Below, piece after piece: positions 2,464 to 22,631 of a DNA stretch of 64,000 nt. Made by a program: the position numbers and the translations under genes. Within the stretch, counting starts at the first letter, position 1, and every line of letters starts with the position of its first letter. This DNA comes from Gautieria morchelliformis. Lineage: Eukaryota > Basidiomycota > Agaricomycetes > Gomphales > Gomphaceae. Under the pieces are notes generated by a model. The model was not told the origin of the DNA, searched no databases, and saw only the letters and a list, made by a program, of their open reading frames with translations. The stretch lies in NCBI GenBank assembly GCA_015179125.1, contig WHVA01000024.1, positions 412,329 to 476,328 of the forward strand. Reading direction: 5' to 3'.

Positions 2464-3330
2464 GTGAGTTTGATGCTACTGAAACTGCCTTTTTTTATGT
2501 TTGTTATTTATAATTTCGCTTTTTTGGCTTTTTTTATGCACTTTTCAAGTGATATTTGTCCTGTCACTGTTGCACTGGGTACCTGGGTGTTTCTGGTGAG
2601 TGTTATGGTATTGTACCTACCTTTTCTTGATGCTTATTATGTTGTTATTTGCTTTAATTTCGCTTTTTTGGCTTTTTTTAGTCACTTTTCAAGTGATATT
2701 TGTCCTGTCACTGCTGCACTGGGTACCTGGGTGTTTCTGGTGAGTGTTATGGTATTGTACCTACCTTTTCTTGATGCTTATTATGTTGTTATTTGCTATA
2801 ATTTCGCTTTTTTGGCTTTTTTTAGGCACTTTTCAAGTGACATTCTTCCTGTCACTGCTGCACCTGCTACCTGGCTGTTTCTGGTGAGTGTTATGGTATT
2901 GTACCTGCCTTTTCCTGATGCTTATTATCTTCTTATTTGCCATAATTTCGCTTTTTTGGCTTTTTTTAGGCACTTTTCAAGTCACATTCTTTCTGTCACT
3001 GCTGCACTTGCTACCTGGCTGTTTCTGGTGAGTGTTATGGTATTGTACCTGCCTTTTCTTGATGCTTATTATCTTCTTATTTGCCATAATTTCGCTTTTT
3101 TTGGCTTTTTTTAGACACTTTTCATGTGACATTCGTTCTGTCACTGCTGCACTTGCTACTTGGCTGTTTCTGGTGAGTGTTATGCTATTGTATCTGCCTT
3201 TTCTTGATGCTTATTATGTTGTTATTTGCTATAACTTTGCTTTTTTGGCATTTTGTGCCACTTTTCAAGTGCATTTGTCCTGTCACTACTGCATACCCTA
3301 CCTGGGTATTATCCCCTTTCTGGTAAGTTT
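2464..3330 (+). repeat. 144-bp tandem array with splice-site-like boundaries in Helitron 2 leader
   Basis: GTGAGT-type donors recur at 2464, 2596, 2740, 2884, 3028 and 3173, and GTAAGT at 3323; three successive intervals are exactly 144 bp. Each unit has a donor-like start, a pyrimidine tract ending TTTTTTTAG, then about 58 bp ending CTG before the next donor. The period is a multiple of three, so long reading frames run through it by chance; I do not call these as genes. It looks like a repeatedly duplicated leader intron plus mini-exon. Confidence 0.8.
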
Positions 3331-10239: not shown

Positions 10240-11350
10240 TGCTTCACTTTGAGGCCCTTGGGGACATGCTACACATGCCATTGGGACATGCTATGCATGC
10301 TATACTTGAGGGGCATGCTACACACACTATGCTTGGGGACACGCATGCTATGTGTGGAGACACTCATGGTATGCATGGAGACACAAATGTTATGCGTGGG
10401 CTATGCTTGGGGACATGCACGCTATGCTTGGGGACACGCATGCTATGCATGTCTCCATGCATGTTATGCGTGGGGACACGCATGCTATGCTTGGGGACAT
10501 GCATACTATGTGTGGAGACACTCATGGTATGCATGGAGACACGAATGTTATGCGTGGGGACACGCACGCCATGCTTGGGGACATGCACGCTATGCTTGGG
10601 GACACGCATGCTATGCATGGAGACACGCACGCTATGCTTGGGGACACCCATGTTATGCGTGGAGACACGCATGTTATGCATGGGCACACGCACGCTATGC
10701 ATGGGGATGTGCACACTATATGTGGGGACACACTATGCTTGGGGGACATGGTACAAACAAGGGACACACTACAGGGGAAAACACTACAAACAAGGGACAT
10801 TCTACACATGCTATACTTGGGGACACACTACAAACAAAGGGCATGCTATGCACACTATACTTGGGGGACATGTTATGCATTGGGGACACACTTTGCACAC
10901 TATACTTGAGGGAGATGCTACACACACTACATGTAGGGACATGCTACACATGTGGACATGCTATGCATGGGGGACACACATGCTATAATTTAGGGACACG
11001 CTACGTTTGGGGACATGCTACAAACCAGGGACATGCTATGCATGTGGGACATGCTATGCATGTGGGACATGCTATGCATGTGGGACATGCTATGCATGTG
11101 GGACTGCTATGCATGTGGGACATGCTATGCATGTGGGACATGCTATGCATGTGGGACATGCTATGCATGTGGGACATGCTATGCATGTGGGACATGCTAT
11201 GCATGTGGGACAAGCTATGCATGTGGGACATGCTATGCATGTGGGACACGCTACGCACACTGTACTTGGGGACATGCTACATGTGGGGACACACTACATG
11301 TGAAGACACACTATGGATGGAGGACATGCTATGCACACTACTTGGGCACA
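10240..11350 (+). repeat. ATGCATG satellite with an 18-bp core array
   Basis: Words of the type GGGACATGCTATGCATGT repeat throughout. From about 11036 to 11250 the period is a regular 18 bp with near-perfect copies; before that the units are 20-24 bp and diverged. Both strands are open in several frames because the repeat lacks stops. There are no unique spacers, so it is not CRISPR-like. Confidence 0.85.
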
Positions 11351-11497
11351 TGCAGCCATGTGTAGAGACATTACCTATCTTGATGTGTTACTTATAGCTA
11401 CTTTCAATTGCAATGAGATGTGTTTTACTTATCCCAAGTTTGATTTACCCAATGCGTTTGACCTACACCCCCATGTGAAGCATGGGTATCCACCTAG

Positions 11498-16213: not shown

Positions 16214-16759
16214 TCAGCAATCAATCAGTTTTTTATTTATTTTTACCTGGTCGTTCGGAAAGAGGTCTCCGACAATTGCGAAGTAGATGCTGCATGTGTT
16301 GAAGAATGCGCATCCCTTTTCCCGATCTCCATCAAAGTCCGCCGGAGTTGCGGGTTTGACCTTTGCCAACTTCGTGGACATCCTCTCTTCCGCCAGTTCC
16401 GCTTTTCCGAAATCCGGCTCATCCAGCATTGCATTTCCACCACCTTGTGGAATATCTAACTTAGCCAAAATCGTTTGTAAGGCTGTTTCAATCGCGTCGG
16501 TCTTCATCCGGTTCCACGTCAATTCCTCCTCCATATTCCGAAGGCGATCATCTGGATCCATGTCAGAAGGGGAAATATGGGACGGGAATTCCGGGGTTGG
16601 GAGCTCGACATAAGAAGAGGGGCTGTCGTATACCGTGTGTGCGGAAGAGGTTGCGATCTCCGAGTCGCTGTCTCCAATTCCAAACGCACCTACGCCGAAT
16701 GCAATGCGCAGTACAACTGCCGGTCCTCTAGGGGAGAGACTTTTCTGCTGTAAGGGCAA
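16214..16759 (-). pseudogene. Ty3/Gypsy gag fragment
   Basis: On the minus strand a 181-codon frame contains a coiled stretch (DDRLRNMEEELTWNRMK) and then the gag-like line PATPADFDGDREKGCAFFN...FPNDQVKI, which resembles the capsid N-terminus of fungal Gypsy gag (P..FDG.R..A..FL). It stops early (KKLIDC) before the rest of capsid and zinc knuckle. The natural start may be the Met at DMDPDDR. It is truncated on its 3' side and has no adjoining pol. Confidence 0.65.
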
Positions 16760-17409
16760 CCCTGGCTGGTTGTGGAGATCACACTACCACACAACTGACA
16801 AGGGGAAATCCAAAGTATGTATAAATGAACAGAGTATACAAGAGAGGGGATTCTCACCTGACAGCGCTTATTTATATTCACACACCCATGTACTTACAGC
16901 AGCGTTTCCCAGCATGAAAGGAAAGATAGGCGGGAGTCGGACTCGCCAGAGTTAGTAAGGTAGCCACTGGTTCTTATTGTCATGTAAAAGGAACTGCCTT
17001 ATTGTCCCGAGATGGGCTTCTGTACTGCTAGGATATTTCATATTCCAAAACTCAGTGCTCAGCATTGGATTCTGGATTGTGACTCGACGAATAAGTACAC
17101 ATGCCAACCGGGCCGCCTCATGTTTGCTTTCACGAAGGCCGCCATCGATTCACTGAGAGGTGGATGTACGGAATCAGCTATACAGTACATGAAAGGAGAG
17201 ATTGATGGATCGCAAACCAGAGCCGGACAAGCTAACTGTACTTCCATGTCGTTTGCACACCATCGTTAAAATCATAATGTGTGAAGATGCCCGGGTCTGC
17301 ACCAGTGCTTGCCCTCTTCCCTCTTTTCTTCTCTAGCTTCGGTTCATGGGGCCACCCTTGCACCACCCCGACCACAGGATCCCTGGACTTTTCCGAGATG
17401 CTGGGCATT

Positions 17410-19083
17410 CACCGCGTTTTAAGGGTTGGTAATTGTAGTCTGAGAACCTGAAAATTAGTCAGTTTATGTTGGTGCTCGGCAAAAGAGTAGGTGAGGTACG
17501 CAGATCTCCAAATAGGTCTGACCAACCCTAGGATGCGTGCACATTAGATACGCACGTCATTGATCGTGTATCTGAGTGCATCACCTATTCAGATGTGTAA
17601 ATACCCTAGTGAATTATATTATAAGTGAGCCTCATTGTCAGATGCCGACCTTGCAGGAACGGCCTCGCGCATATAGTCTACTTGGAGCGCAGTGACCTAC
17701 AGGCACACCTGCTTGTAACAGGTAATTGTATTCCAAACCAGTATGAGATAATTTAACCCACAGACATATATTAAAATATACAGAGATAATATTATTTGAA
17801 ACCAATACAAAAAACAGTCACACACATTCTCGACAGCGTCCCCACTCCCCCTTGTCTCTATATCCCATATATGCGTCATCTGTGCGCGCACGTCAGCATC
17901 AGCGTCCACGTCATAGCAGCACCTCACCTTATTCCAGGACCAGACATGATAAGCTGCCCGTCGCCGGAAAAGTCAAGCGAATAGATTTCCTCCTGGTGCC
18001 CCTCGAACACGGTGTGCATGGGCTTCTTTGTGACATGCTAGACCTGCGAAAGCAGAAAAAAAAGAGGCAAAGTCAGCACCCATCACCGCACCCCGCCCGC
18101 TCCCCCGCCCTCACGAACACGTCGCGCCACTCATGCGTATCTGTTTATCCTCGGCACCCATCATGAGGAGCTTCCGGCCGGGGCTAAACCGCATGCTGCG
18201 GATATACAGGTCCCCGAGCTTCGCGCTGCGGTGTCGTCCACCAGCATCTCGAGCGAGGCGACAAAAACCAAAAAACGAATATGAATCTGACCAACACCGC
18301 ATCAGCCCAACCACACAGAAAGAGAGACACAAAACTGTGGCACACCCTTGTTCCGCACCACGTCTTTGCACCCGTCTTCGAGTTGTGTGATGCGCGGCGT
18401 GTGCGTGTGCGCGTAACACCCTGTGGGTCAGTCAGCATGCGGCGTGGGAGGGCGAGGGACGCACCCTTCACTCGGTTGCCCCCCTGTTCTCGCGTTGTCA
18501 CAAGCCTATGGTATCAATTGCCAACGCAGAGTACCGATTGTTGAGCTGACTGACTCTGAGGCAGGGATCAACAGTCGAGAAGGATGTTATTATAGCCGCC
18601 AGAGGCACACCGCGAGTGGGTTGTGGTGGTAGGAGTGAAAGTGACGGAGTCTGAAACAAAATGAACTTACAAGTACAAGTAGTACTAGTACTTAGTACTA
18701 TTAGTATATTAGTACGAGCATCGGCGCTGTTACATAAAAATATTTTCTAAGTTCATTTGGTGAATGTATAGCTCCCCAGATGCATTCTGGGTTGACCTCA
18801 CATGGTCAAAGCACGTTTGAGAGCAATTGCTAGCAAGCACTCAACCAATTGGCACTAAAGCTTGTCATCGAGGATGGAGGGTGACCAGAATCCGATACCT
18901 TCGAGGTAGGACACATGGTCGATTAGATTTGATGTCACTCCCGGGTATTTGGACGTTCACCTTGCCGGGATCATCGTGGAATCTGGTTACTAACTAGTAC
19001 CTTGCTTTATGTAGCCCTGTCTCAAACCATATCGGATCAGGATATGTATTCCGACCACAAACACCAAGCCCTAAAATGCGGTG
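17410..19083. mobile_element. Pack-type TIR element 1 carrying a Tup1 fragment
   Basis: The left end CACCGCGTTTTAAGGGTTGG and the right end (read reversed) CACCGCATTTTAGGGCTTGG are imperfect terminal inverted repeats of about 35 bp. ATT flanks both sides (17407-17409 and 19084-19086), a 3-bp target duplication. The 1674-bp interior has no transposase but holds spliced-type exons of a Tup1 homologue on the minus strand. The 3-bp duplication and CAC start suggest CACTA-like ends, but the superfamily is not proven. Confidence 0.7.
17815..18400 (-). pseudogene. Tup1-like WD40 co-repressor, captured exon fragments
   Basis: Four exon pieces can be read on the minus strand in the order of fungal Tup1: NSKTGAKTW (near 18388-18358); GDLYIRSMRFSPGRKLL with GAEDKQIRMS (18225-18130); TKKPMHTVFEGHQEEIYSL with FSGDGQLIMSGPG (18035-17945); and MTHIWDIETRGSG (17880-17820). 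Gaps between them have GT...AG ends. In functional Tup1 these form WD40 blades that bind repressor proteins in the nucleus. Here the W-D of one blade is lost (TAG in frame before TKKP), GSGD is GPGI, and the protein is cut on both sides. It lies wholly inside the TIR element 17410-19083. Confidence 0.8.
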
Positions 19084-19202
19084 ATTGTCATTTTCAGTGT
19101 AAGAGCTGCTGACTGTGCCTATCATCGTAAGCAGCAATGTAGACATCCCACTGATGCGGGTCAATATGGGTGGGCGCATTAAATATTAACTCCCAATCCA
19201 AT

Positions 19203-22068
19203 CACCGCGTTTTAGGGCTTGGTAATCGTGGTCGGAATATGTAGGCTAGTCTGATATAGAAGCGCCAACTCCTAGACATTAGTGAGTACTCGTGATCTAC
19301 GATGATGTCGGCGCCGCGGACGTCTAAATACCTGGGGCTGGGTTCAATCTTCTGCAACCCCATGTCCTCAATCTTCAACATAGGATCACGAGTACCCAGG
19401 GTAACCCCACAACCTCGGTTGTCGGATTCTGTCATAGTACGGCTAAATCAGACCGACGCTTGATCCCAATCAGACTTCAGCCATGTGTGGCCACGCGGCA
19501 ACACATGCAAGGGCATATGATTGCTCGTTCCCGGGCTGAACTTGGAAAAATTTGGAGAGCAACAACTTAACAATATATTAGTCACTACTAGTACTAGTAG
19601 AATTCTCTGAAGTCCTTTCGGATCCCAACCTTATGTAATTAGAATACACTCGTTCTTCCTCTCTCACCGCCACCACCATGACCGTGATGTGTTCGCCCCG
19701 TGTGGGCCAGTAGCACTGGGCGGGCACATCGCGGTCATGGACATGTCTGCTTTTTGCTTTTCGTGCCCCACAGCGTGCGCACACCACACCTCACGGACCA
19801 CGGTGCGTGGGGGAACGGCGAGAGCGGCGACGGCACAGGGAAGGGCGCGGGCGGGTGAATGTGCGGGGCCATGTGCGTGTGCGCCGCCGGGTCCAACGTG
19901 TCATTCAGAGAGGGTCTTGCGCCAGATGTATGTCAGCGACTACCACCGCCATTCTTACCGATTCCGACGTCCCCCAGGGCTCTACGACCTTCTGTCCTCG
20001 CCTCCTCTTGATCGATTACAAGAGTAAATCCAACAGTGCATATAAGTATGTCTTAACCATCTCAAACGCCATATAGGCAAATTTGGCTCTTTATCCCATA
20101 TCAATGCTCTCAATGTTGGTGAAGAAGATGCCCCGGTCGATTTGACGTGGTCAGCTCCATTTTTGACATTCGCTCTTCATTTCCAATCTAGAAAACCTCA
20201 GGACAGGGCCTGTTTCGGAGCATCTCCAGGACCCCATCCCGCAGAGCTCATATCACGCCCGCCTTGATGCTGGGGAGGATGAAGAGGATGAAGATGACTT
20301 AGATGTGGAAATGGACAAAGGCGAGCACGATTCTGTCCCCGATCTCACTTCCTCCATTCGCTTTTGGTCCGACTATTCACGCATGTTCTACCATCCTCGC
20401 AGTCTCCACCGCATCCCGGACCCCTGCAGAGTGGAAGCGCGAAGCCGGATGGCCACAGGTGTCGAGAGGTTCCACGCGTACAACACGGTGAGTTCACTTG
20501 ACTACCCATATGGAAAAATTCCATGAGACTGACAAGGGATGCATATACCCAGAATCAGGCTGTGCTGGAAGACTCCTTCAGACTATTTGCAGAAGAGTGC
20601 CACTTGTTACAGGTACGTCTTCTGCCGCAGGCCGCTTGTGCTCATCGCTTAATCGGACACGTCCTTAGGGTGTCCAGCTGTGCATGGACGCGCCGTCTTT
20701 CGGCTCCTTTACAGTGTCACTTCTTTCCCGGTTCCGTGACGAGTACCCCAAACTCCCTGTCCTCAGCTTCTGTTCGCTCTCGCGGCATGATCCTGCTGAA
20801 GTCAATTTAGAGAATGTGGGTTGCATGTCTCTTATAGCCAGTTCCGCTCTGATTGATACTACGAACATATTAGACACCAGGTTGCGTGAATGCCTTGAAT
20901 GATGCATTAACACTCAATGAATTGGCGGCGTTATTGACACTGGTCGTGCCCTTACAATCTCCCACCACATGGCGTCGCAGACCGTGGAGTGAACATCTAA
21001 AGGTCGATGTGTGTGTTTGTAGCCATCTTATTTACCTAGGCTTAATCCCGCTTGAGACAGTTCACGCATCCCTACACACCTCCGCTCTCCTTGCGGCCCA
21101 CATTGAAAGTTCCACGCTTCCCCTCCGGTACGTCAGAATCCATGCACAAAACCCCGTATACCTAAACACCGTCTCGCCTCAGGTTAAACGCTTCAGTGCC
21201 CTCCTTTACAGACCTTGCATCCCTCTGCGCACAGCTTAACTGCGCGGTAACACACCTTTCGTCGCGTTATCCGGTGCATTTCCTGTAACCCCATCTCCTC
21301 CCGCTCTCGAAATACTCATTCGACTATTCACACCCTGCCTCACTGCCCAAGGTACATACTTTCTGATGGTTCTGTCATAGTTGCTGATACGTGTGAAAGG
21401 ACAAGAGTTCAGTGCCGTTTGCACAGCGGGATGTGTACCGGGGCCTAGACGCACGAGAGAAGGCGGCTGTCCAGAGCTGGGTTGTGGATGCAGAGTTGGC
21501 GGTGGGTTCGGATATGGGTCGCTCGGGTCGTGGTGAACAACCGCATGTTTTCAGGGTGCGGGGAAGGCAGTGGAAGGGCTCTTAAGGTAGAAAAGAAAAT
21601 TCTATGGGGCGGTGTGGACGCGATGTAGCTATGACGCATCGCGTTGAGGTGCTACCTATTAGAGTAATGGAACTACTTTTATCTCCACCCATCTGCCTGG
21701 TTTCGAGGGGCTCAAGTATAATCAGATTAGGACTACTTGCGAGGCTTAAACATGGATGTAGGTAATAGCATCGCAAATACACGATATGCGCGGGCACAAT
21801 TTGACAAGTTCATAAAAACTTGTGCTCAGAGGAGGCGGGTTGGTCAGGCTGTGATGAGCTCACATGTTATGATGCTGAATACCTATATTGTTTGGACCTA
21901 CGAACGAGGACTAACATCTATGAAGGTATCTAAACTGAACGCAAGGCACGCCATATTCATGATCCGAGTACCCCGACTGATCAGAGCCCGAGCACCCACT
22001 ATAACCCCGCTAGATCTCACCTACTCGTGAGAATTCCCACCACGATTACGAACCCCTAAAACGCGGTG
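19203..22068. mobile_element. Pack-type TIR element 2 carrying a Dml1/Misato fragment
   Basis: Ends are CACCGCGTTTTAGGGCTTGG (left) and, reversed, CACCGCGTTTTAGGGGTTCG (right); about 32 of the first 36 bases match. AAT lies on both sides (19200-19202 and 22069-22071). The TIR is the same family as element 1, only 119 bp away. No transposase is seen in its 2866 bp; it carries a multi-exon Dml1 fragment on the plus strand. Confidence 0.7.
19884..21350 (+). pseudogene. Dml1/Misato-like gene fragment (tubulin-related, mitochondrial inheritance)
   Basis: Dml1/Misato proteins have a tubulin-like fold and affect mitochondrial partitioning. The exons read in order NVSFREGLAPD; CPRLLLIDYKSKFGSLSH with EDAPVDLTW; an acidic stretch then RFWSDYSRMFYHPRSL; NQAVLEDSFRLFAEECHLLQ; GVQLCMDAPSFGSFT with LLSRFRDEYPKLPVL; CVNALNDALTLNELAAL; TSALLAAHIESSTLPLR; and FTDLASLCAQLNC. 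They are joined by seven or so GT-AG introns of 50-65 bp, for example GTATGT...CCCCCAG and GTACGT...CCTTAG. The N-terminal tubulin-like start (about 60 residues) is missing and the frame breaks after VHF near 21290, so it is a fragment. It sits between the TIRs of 19203-22068. Confidence 0.82.
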
Positions 22069-22631
22069 AATGGTTGCGGCAATGGGTGTCGCGATCAAGC
22101 AGCCCCGAGCCCCAAACTACCAAAACTGGGTAAAGTATAATCTGCATACTTCCTCGCTAGCACTGCTCACTGTCTGTTTCCCACATTGAATTTCAAAATG
22201 TTGATAATGTTTACCATTTGTCGGTACGATCGATCGGTACGTAGTTTCTAATACGAGCTTGTTTCTATAGGCTAACTTCACAAGCCTTCGTATCCCATCA
22301 AGTACCCGTTGCGGATTTCAGCTTAATACGCTCGGGGTTGACACGCCCACCTCCATGGACTCCTGTATCTGGTAGCAAGGCTCTCCCTTACAGATAGAAT
22401 CCCGACTCTCCTGCAATGGCCGTCAGTCTCTACCATATTATTTATATAAATCTCAGCAAGTAAACTCAGCATTGTACACATACTCATCTATCATAGAAGC
22501 GCGTCGTATGCTCCAACCCACTCGAGATGAAATAATAATAAACCGAACGCAATTGTCCTGCTCCGAAAAAGTGAGTACGAAAAACGCACACGCGCGGCGG
22601 ACGCCATGTAGTAATAGACGTTAGACGCACC
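22069..22631. other. Gene-free spacer between TIR element 2 and the host gene island
   Basis: AT-rich sequence with no coding frame that resembles a protein. A short TATTTATATAAAT tract near 22440 could serve as 3' or promoter sequence. Nothing else is recognised. Confidence 0.5.

Follow-up and report, generated by a model that had tools for sequence, protein, structure and literature searches.

Layout of the two elements and the extent of the family

The window analysed here is a stretch of 64,000 nucleotides from the basidiomycete Gautieria morchelliformis (contig WHVA01000024.1, positions 412,329 to 476,328 of the forward strand, assembly GCA_015179125.1). It contains two neighbouring elements with terminal inverted repeats (TIRs), here called element 1 and element 2, which carry fragments of a Tup1-like and a Dml1 (Misato) gene, respectively, and are separated by a gap of 119 bp. 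Both are multi-copy and non-autonomous, have TIRs and target site duplications (TSDs) and contain host gene fragments, all of which supports their classification as Pack-type elements. We think it likely that they belong to a CACTA/EnSpm-like TIR family of two related subfamilies, in which non-autonomous members captured host gene DNA and then multiplied. The features are as follows, in window positions.

17407..17409, no strand: left TSD (ATT) of element 1; a single ATT stands at the empty paralogous site on C781
17410..19083, + strand: element 1 (Tup1-type), non-autonomous TIR element of 1,674 bp, from its TIRs, TSD and multi-copy matches
17410..17443, + strand: element 1 TIR, outer arm; this end is like that of the cargo-free elements C182:291694, C210 and C148
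17810..18639, - strand: element 1 captured stretch at its widest possible, a Tup1-like WD40 fragment with native sequence on both sides
17924-18037 and about 18111-18260, - strand: WD40-like exons of element 1, from Pfam and structural matches
19050..19083, - strand: element 1 TIR, inner arm
19084..19086, no strand: right TSD (ATT) of element 1
19087..19199, no strand: host DNA between the elements, 113 bp without the TSDs, with a 75-84% match on C781
19200..19202, no strand: left TSD (AAT) of element 2
19203..22068, + strand: element 2 (Dml1-type), non-autonomous TIR element of 2,866 bp, of which 10 further copies were examined
19203..19238, + strand: element 2 TIR, left arm (41-nt arms including flank, 90% complementary)
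19203..19895, + strand: left part of element 2 in its native state, with GGGTCCA as its last bases before the captured DNA, and running on as native sequence in C314 and C210
19896..21490, + strand: captured Dml1/Misato fragment with introns, corresponding to L063:1699-3307, right edge +/-2 bp
21491..22068, + strand: native right part of element 2, probably brought next to Dml1 when internal sequence was later deleted; 97% to positions 10790-11374 of the C356 element
22033..22068, - strand: element 2 TIR, right arm
22069..22071, no strand: right TSD (AAT) of element 2

A preliminary description of the region had reported CACCGCG-type TIRs and exact TSDs (ATT and AAT) at these places, and inverted-repeat and TSD checks confirm them. 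It had also proposed a genome-wide search for further copies and held that a TIR found only here would refute its reading. The genome of the same assembly (122 Mb, 1,113 contigs) was searched with a 24-base TIR core, allowing at most 3 mismatches. This gave 95 forward and 77 reverse matches, 172 in all, against 0 + 0 for the same pattern reversed as a control, so that the TIR is not unique and its matches greatly exceed chance; about 100 of the 172 places were listed individually. Family termini have the form 5'-CAC..GTG-3' with a 3-bp TSD. Among the 20 complete TIR pairs in the loci examined, 15 have identical 3-bp TSDs (AAT 4, ACT 3, ATT 2, AGT 2, and TTT, CAT, TAT and AGA 1 each), of which 11 are of the form ANT; the triplets are mismatched in C181, C356, C430, C1081 and C260. 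A 27-nt inverted repeat (85%) lies at window positions 19676-19740, inside the native left part of element 2. Two family elements, on C349 (L016) and C356 (L017), have identical 1,500-bp outer flanks, suggesting either an assembly duplicate or a recent segmental duplication.

Paralogous DNA on C781 spans both insertion sites without the elements, in pieces of at least 37 bp that are 75-92% identical. Locus L070 passes from the left flank of element 1 to the DNA behind element 1 with one ATT and then continues past the element 2 site, which is also crossed by locus L069. The joined 18-mer GGGCATTGTCATTTTCAG occurs exactly at the empty element 1 site with its single ATT, while at the empty element 2 site the triplet has diverged to AAC from AAT. 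Because this paralogous DNA runs through both sites, the insertions of elements 1 and 2 are confirmed at the level of sequence. The possibility raised beforehand, that empty sites might hold the Tup1 and Dml1 exons without TIRs, is not borne out, the C781 sites being devoid of these exons. The C781 paralogues came from a search with the right flank; an allelic empty site was not found using the left flank, which is occupied by a high-copy repeat. This repeat (window positions 16246-16863, beside element 1) has 39 other places at 95-96% among those scored, and 1,910 first-look candidates.

The Dml1 cargo of element 2 and its donor gene

Positions 691-2290 of element 2 match C234:95695-97306 at 96% over 1,600 bp. 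The 6-kb donor locus (L063, C234:94000-100000) gives Pfam matches to Misat_Tub_SegII (E 9e-9) and Tubulin_3 (E 2e-7), the latter of which is also matched by the element 2 cargo, and it holds an intact-looking Misato/Dml1 gene. On our reading of the C234 frames, this gene extends both upstream and downstream of the captured part. The captured DNA begins within an early exon, so the start codon was left behind. In every complete 100-bp segment, 94-99% of aligned bases agree between element 2 and the donor, and no segment has more than 6 gapped positions; the intron-like GT..AG stretches of the donor are kept in element 2 (introns here being a reading of the frames rather than an annotated gene model). 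Because these stretches are kept, the comparison supports a DNA-mediated capture of Dml1. The claims of the preliminary description that element 2 carries a Dml1 fragment with introns in place and that the route was DNA rather than RNA therefore hold for this cargo, and the alignment to the full Dml1 gene that it called for gives the 96% match to C234.

No family TIR (at most 5 mismatches) is present in the 6-kb donor locus on C234, and the captured stretch there has none for 1.7 kb on its upstream side and 2.6 kb on its downstream side. A second, partial Dml1 on C333 (L085, C333:64170-64330) comprises the 3' portion of the gene and extends beyond the captured end, with 95.7% identity to the donor there. 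It was considered as the donor and rejected, as its match to the query is 93% and confined to the 3' part. At the right break C333 reads GATTCCG and C234 reads GATTTCG, and the C333 bases are found in most of the loaded copies shown. The donor allele may have had C333-type bases at this point, which would explain the difference between the loaded copies and C234.

The capture site and its cargo-free counterparts

The element on C314 consists of an element-2-type left part followed directly by the sequence that follows Dml1 in the C473 copy. Its cargo-free acceptor reads ...GCCGCCGGGTCCAGGTTCGGGTGCATG..., and the loaded copies read ...GCCGCCGGGTCCA + ACGTGTC...GATTCC + GGTGCATG..., which amounts to a gain of about 1,650 bp of gene and a loss of 6-7 bp of element, about 698 bp from the left end. 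There is no duplication at the acceptor around the captured Dml1, which is therefore not the insertion of another transposon. The element on C210 was compared after C314 to check whether C314 might have arisen by deletion. Its acceptor is likewise unbroken (GGGTCCAGGTTCGGGTGCATG) and is 92% identical to that of C314 over 201 bp, and its terminus is of the element 1 type. Because an element with this other terminus is also unbroken, the cargo-free state looks ancestral, probably predating the divergence of the two subfamilies, and it is unlikely that C314 has lost its cargo by deletion. A hairpin at the acceptor was considered as a special feature and discarded, the 60-nt segment centred on it ranking 34 (from 0) of 293 in stability along C314.

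Spread and decay of the Dml1 copies

Eleven Dml1 copies were compared, including element 2 and leaving out C351. All 11 have one left junction in common. The far right end, L063:3345-3348, is kept in four of them (C473, C245, C740 and C1081), the first three of which also lack donor positions 2503-2990. Earlier right ends are found in the other seven, at 3307 (element 2, C430 and C260), 2611 (C559, C166 and C779) and 2448 (C181). The simplest reading would be one capture reaching to about L063:3348, followed by separate internal deletions. Within a shared block of 753 bp the copies differ from the donor by 3.6-5.3% and among themselves by 1.3-5.7%; 14 differences are common to all 11 and 91 columns vary among copies. 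In C559, C166 and C779 (L057, L058 and L056) the place of the Dml1 end is taken by a 581-bp stretch that is 98.6-100% alike among them and is possibly a second capture. The Dml1-type element on C1081 (L055, C1081:212736-217028) has a 1,574-bp insertion in its cargo, with relatives on C182.

Changes from C to T are found in 156 of 1113 CpG cells versus 52 of 3263 other C cells, these cells not being independent since they come from 11 related copies. Outside CpG they number 34/1083 at CpA, 10/1057 at CpT and 8/1123 at CpC. The cargo thus appears to undergo CpG-focused C>T decay, as expected of methylated repeats. In donor positions 2000-2285 the 11 copies have 55, 16 and 31 differences at codon positions 1, 2 and 3 (totals 1042, 1030 and 1027), with no excess at the third position. 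Indels in this interval are not a multiple of three in five copies, consist of a 12-bp deletion only in three, and are absent from the remaining three. Selection on the Dml1 cargo is not supported by these comparisons.

The Tup1-like cargo of element 1

Matches to the native part of element 1 reach element position 399 and are picked up again at 1230, the start of the compared locus, so that the cargo spans about position 400 to at most 1230. Yeast TUP1 (1erj) matches it in a single stretch with 64 bits and an E of 6.8e-17, and is alone in this among the seven best structural matches, the other six being chains that have several WD40 repeats and higher total scores. These matches support a WD40 fragment most like Tup1. 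The closest gene-like match to this cargo in the genome is C419:47222, at 63%. Of 31 entries in the match list, 17 (element 1 included) cover at least 600 of the 661-base query at 84-100% identity, and identity to element 1 is 84-97% among the 16 long copies. The tree of Tup1-type elements covers 12 of the 13 copies, the partial copy on C145 being left out. In C227, C733, C326 and C454 the native part adjacent to the cargo stops at one shared point (position 762 in the C182 element and 701 in C210), which implies that element 1 has since lost native sequence there. Intron retention is inferred from the two WD40-like exons lying apart rather than from a donor alignment. The preliminary description of a Tup1 fragment with introns is thus supported as to the label, and its introns are likely from the separation of the exons.

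Candidate transposase partner and likely superfamily

Neither element contains a match in the four genome-wide transposase searches, among the best candidates listed, in agreement with the preliminary description. For the autonomous partner that it had suggested looking for, there is a candidate relative. An element of 11,374 bp on C356, with a Copia insertion inside, has both termini in common with element 2 over 358 bp (94%) and 585 bp (97%), but its transposase is broken. Judged by motifs only, its broken frames resemble fungal Tnp2 (CACTA/EnSpm-like). On this weak evidence the broken transposase is probably CACTA/EnSpm-like, and the family likely belongs to the CACTA/EnSpm superfamily. DNA 86-100% like the C356 transposase stretch is present on C356, C349, C560, C571, C428, C422 and C182, all of which bear family TIRs. 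The TIRs flank the stretch on C356 and C422, are 1-3 kb away on C349 and C571, less than 8 kb away on C428 and C182, and 13 kb away on C560.

In CACTA elements a second protein binds subterminal repeats. Elements without Tup1 or Dml1 cargo (L030, L031, L033, L034 and L080) have a second frame near one terminus (MRVVHHDPSDPYPNPPPTL.., MRVVNHDLSDPYAKPPPS.. and related ones), which may encode a terminus-binding partner protein. The C356 version of this frame has no Pfam match. Plavaka (PF18759) was examined as a partner and rejected, since none of its 135 matches lies between family TIRs seen (by eye, at about 100 of the 172 TIR places).

Proposed mechanism of capture

The aligned copies show that genomic Dml1 of about 1,650 bp, with its introns, entered an element of C314 architecture at a single internal position. 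We propose that a break inside this single element was repaired by a polymerase that copied an ectopic Dml1 template before rejoining, by a route like the gap filling or template switching of the FoSTeST model for animal Pack-TIRs, and that transposition followed. Repair of this kind predicts contiguous native sequence at the acceptor, and it is favoured for that reason. Many sites now hold the loaded element, with 3-bp TSDs that vary from site to site and are mostly ANT. It would have been mobilised by a transposase supplied in trans by C356-like elements, with which it has both termini in common. The copies diversified by internal deletions, that in element 2 having removed the Dml1 end together with native sequence up to the present right part. 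The cargo would be passive and not under selection, decaying chiefly at CpG. Element 1 is likely to go back to an earlier capture, that of Tup1-like gene DNA.

A different mechanism has been published for plant Pack-CACTAs and other Pack-TYPE elements. There, two insertions close to each other are stripped of their inner ends and then transpose as one hybrid element (PMC8903248, PMC13317346). Applied to element 2, two elements would have flanked Dml1, lost their inner ends and moved by their outer TIRs. Close pairs do occur in this family, elements 1 and 2 being 119 bp apart and a family TIR lying 543 bp beyond a Tup1-type element on C209. In addition, a family element (C234:87849-88435) ends 7.3 kb upstream of the donor gene; it would suit copying from a nearby template, but it keeps tandem insertion alive as a minor rival. 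Against this, the native sequence flanking Dml1 is contiguous to 6-7 bp in the two cargo-free elements, on C314 and C210. Under tandem insertion two independent inner deletions must meet at the same native position, for which a rough estimate is about 0.5% if breaks fall at random along an element about 2.7 kb in length, and the donor has no family TIR within the 1.7 kb upstream and 2.6 kb downstream of the captured stretch. These observations suggest that gene DNA was copied into a break in a single element and are a poor fit with tandem insertion, which we consider unlikely for Dml1; for element 1 the tandem-insertion model remains open. The witness of C314 would be lost if this element had once borne Dml1 and shed it by deletion between CCA repeats, so that no pre-capture state survived. 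CCA does occur at each end of the captured DNA, and trees of the left part do not make C314 a clear outgroup. Such a deletion would leave GAT, which is absent from both C314 and C210, and C210 has the same unbroken sequence (92%, 201 bp) with an element-1-type terminus, which makes this explanation very improbable.

An RNA route has a fungal precedent in a Pseudocercospora fijiensis hAT element, which carries an intron-less histone H3 piece that the cited passage reads as a retrocopy (PMC6710886). Element 2 aligns with its donor over the whole genomic length, intron-like stretches included, which refutes a retrocopy for Dml1, and that the gene pieces are cDNAs or retrocopies landed in elements is scarcely conceivable. 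A further alternative concerns the partner, which might be a PIF/Harbinger transposase (DDE_Tnp_4) rather than a CACTA-like one. At two C182 loci 608 bp separate a family TIR from a reading frame for DDE_Tnp_4 (above the cut-off for PF13359, with E 6e-7), and 3-bp TSDs occur in Harbinger elements too, according to the cited part of PMC12730594. The C182 copies, however, have just 57 bp of terminus in common with element 2, whereas the C356 element has both long termini in common with it. The repeat containing the C182 frames (L028, L029 and L074) runs 1.5 kb past the TIR, and the frame's relatives on C190 and C161, 85-86% alike as proteins, lack a family TIR in the 2.3-3.1 kb to either side. 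The C182 frame is probably a neighbour or a nested repeat, and a Harbinger partner seems to us decidedly unlikely.

Several points weigh against capture by break repair in a CACTA/EnSpm-like family. With regard to the superfamily, its assignment rests on the 3-bp TSDs, the CAC..GTG ends, Tnp2-like motifs and a PF02992 match below the cut-off (C342, E 0.0097), which stands beside a distant (45%) relative. Pfam gave no accepted match on the scanned pieces of the C356 frame, and none of 83 PF02992 matches lies inside the family elements seen by eye at about 100 of the 172 TIR places. The flanking triplets of the C356 element do not match, there is no intact autonomous copy among the elements sequenced, and transposition and trans-mobilisation are inferred, not observed. 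As to the capture itself, microhomology at the breaks is 0 bp on the left and 0-1 bp on the right, so that nothing in it speaks positively for template switching. Trees of the left part do not set C314 clearly apart from the loaded copies, the C210 evidence consists of its 1.5-kb end and the 201 bp spanning the site, and the family element 7.3 kb from the donor gene must be counted here as well.

Comparison with known systems

Plant CACTA elements have 3-bp TSDs and CAC-type ends. The elements described here have such TSDs and ends as well, and like plant Pack-CACTA and Pack-TYPE elements they are TIR elements that are non-autonomous, contain fragments of host genes and, as we propose, have multiplied in trans. 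They differ from plant Pack-CACTA in their fungal host, in a TIR reading CACCGCG rather than CACTA, and in the contiguity of the cargo flanks in cargo-free elements. Animal Pack-TIRs have been explained by gap filling/FoSTeST (Tan et al. 2021, PMC8277862). In the part of that study cited here, microhomology is given at one or both break points in 190 (67.6%), being common rather than required, and orthologous TIR transposable elements were not found for the four multi-copy cases that it examines. The present capture is like these in that gene DNA entered at one internal point with little loss of element, followed by multi-copy transposition; it is unlike them in occurring in a fungus and in a CACTA-like family, with cargo-free sister elements in the same genome and microhomology of 0-1 bp.

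Helitrons are rolling-circle elements that are not known to have TIRs or TSDs. They are reported to have captured genes in Pleurotus, a basidiomycete (PMC4289320), and the likeness to the present case is confined to captured gene fragments in a basidiomycete, the elements here having TIRs and TSDs. Among fungal DNA transposons, hAT-H3 and Tc1/mariner transduplication in Pyrenophora was called the first in fungi (Manning et al. 2013, PMC3538342), and the intron-less cargo of the Pseudocercospora hAT-H3 was read as derived from a transcript or retrocopy (Dhillon et al. 2019, PMC6710886), as the cited parts of these papers put it. Both resemble our case as fungal DNA transposons that captured and multiplied a gene. 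Unlike in these ascomycete hAT and mariner cases, introns are kept here and both the donor and a cargo-free acceptor are visible. Fungal EnSpm elements (CMCT clade) are described in the cited section of PMC12730594 as having 5'-CAC..GTG-3' ends and 3-bp TSDs, as does the present family. Plavaka elements, reconstructed from Agaricomycotina, end in TGT..ACA or CATCA..TGATG (PMC12730594), unlike the CAC..GTG termini found here; the 135 Plavaka matches in the genome are consistent with its basidiomycete origin. The preliminary description had called gene capture in a basidiomycete, with regulators as cargo, unusual. Capture by TIR elements is already known in fungi from hAT and mariner elements of ascomycetes, which qualifies this claim; no CACTA-type capture in a basidiomycete was found in our literature search, among the matches listed from open-licence papers.

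Since TIR-element gene capture in fungi is already known, the main value of the present case is its record of donor, acceptor and product. The mode of capture by TIR elements is debated between tandem insertion with hybrid excision (plants) and gap filling or fork switching (animals). With the donor, a cargo-free acceptor and the loaded products coexisting in one genome, the break points can be read base by base. The case would also bring capture with introns kept, by a CACTA-like family, into the fungi, where the TIR cases that we found in print involve hAT or mariner elements, one of these cases lacking introns. As a more general proposal, which we put forward tentatively and hold to be slightly more apt to fail than to stand, a fungal CACTA-like family would capture genes by ectopic copying into breaks in single elements, without tandem insertions, the donor, acceptors in two subfamilies and loaded copies all being kept and the GC-rich acceptor serving as a recurrent break point. 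If this is true, other copies of the family are expected to carry further cargoes at this native position.

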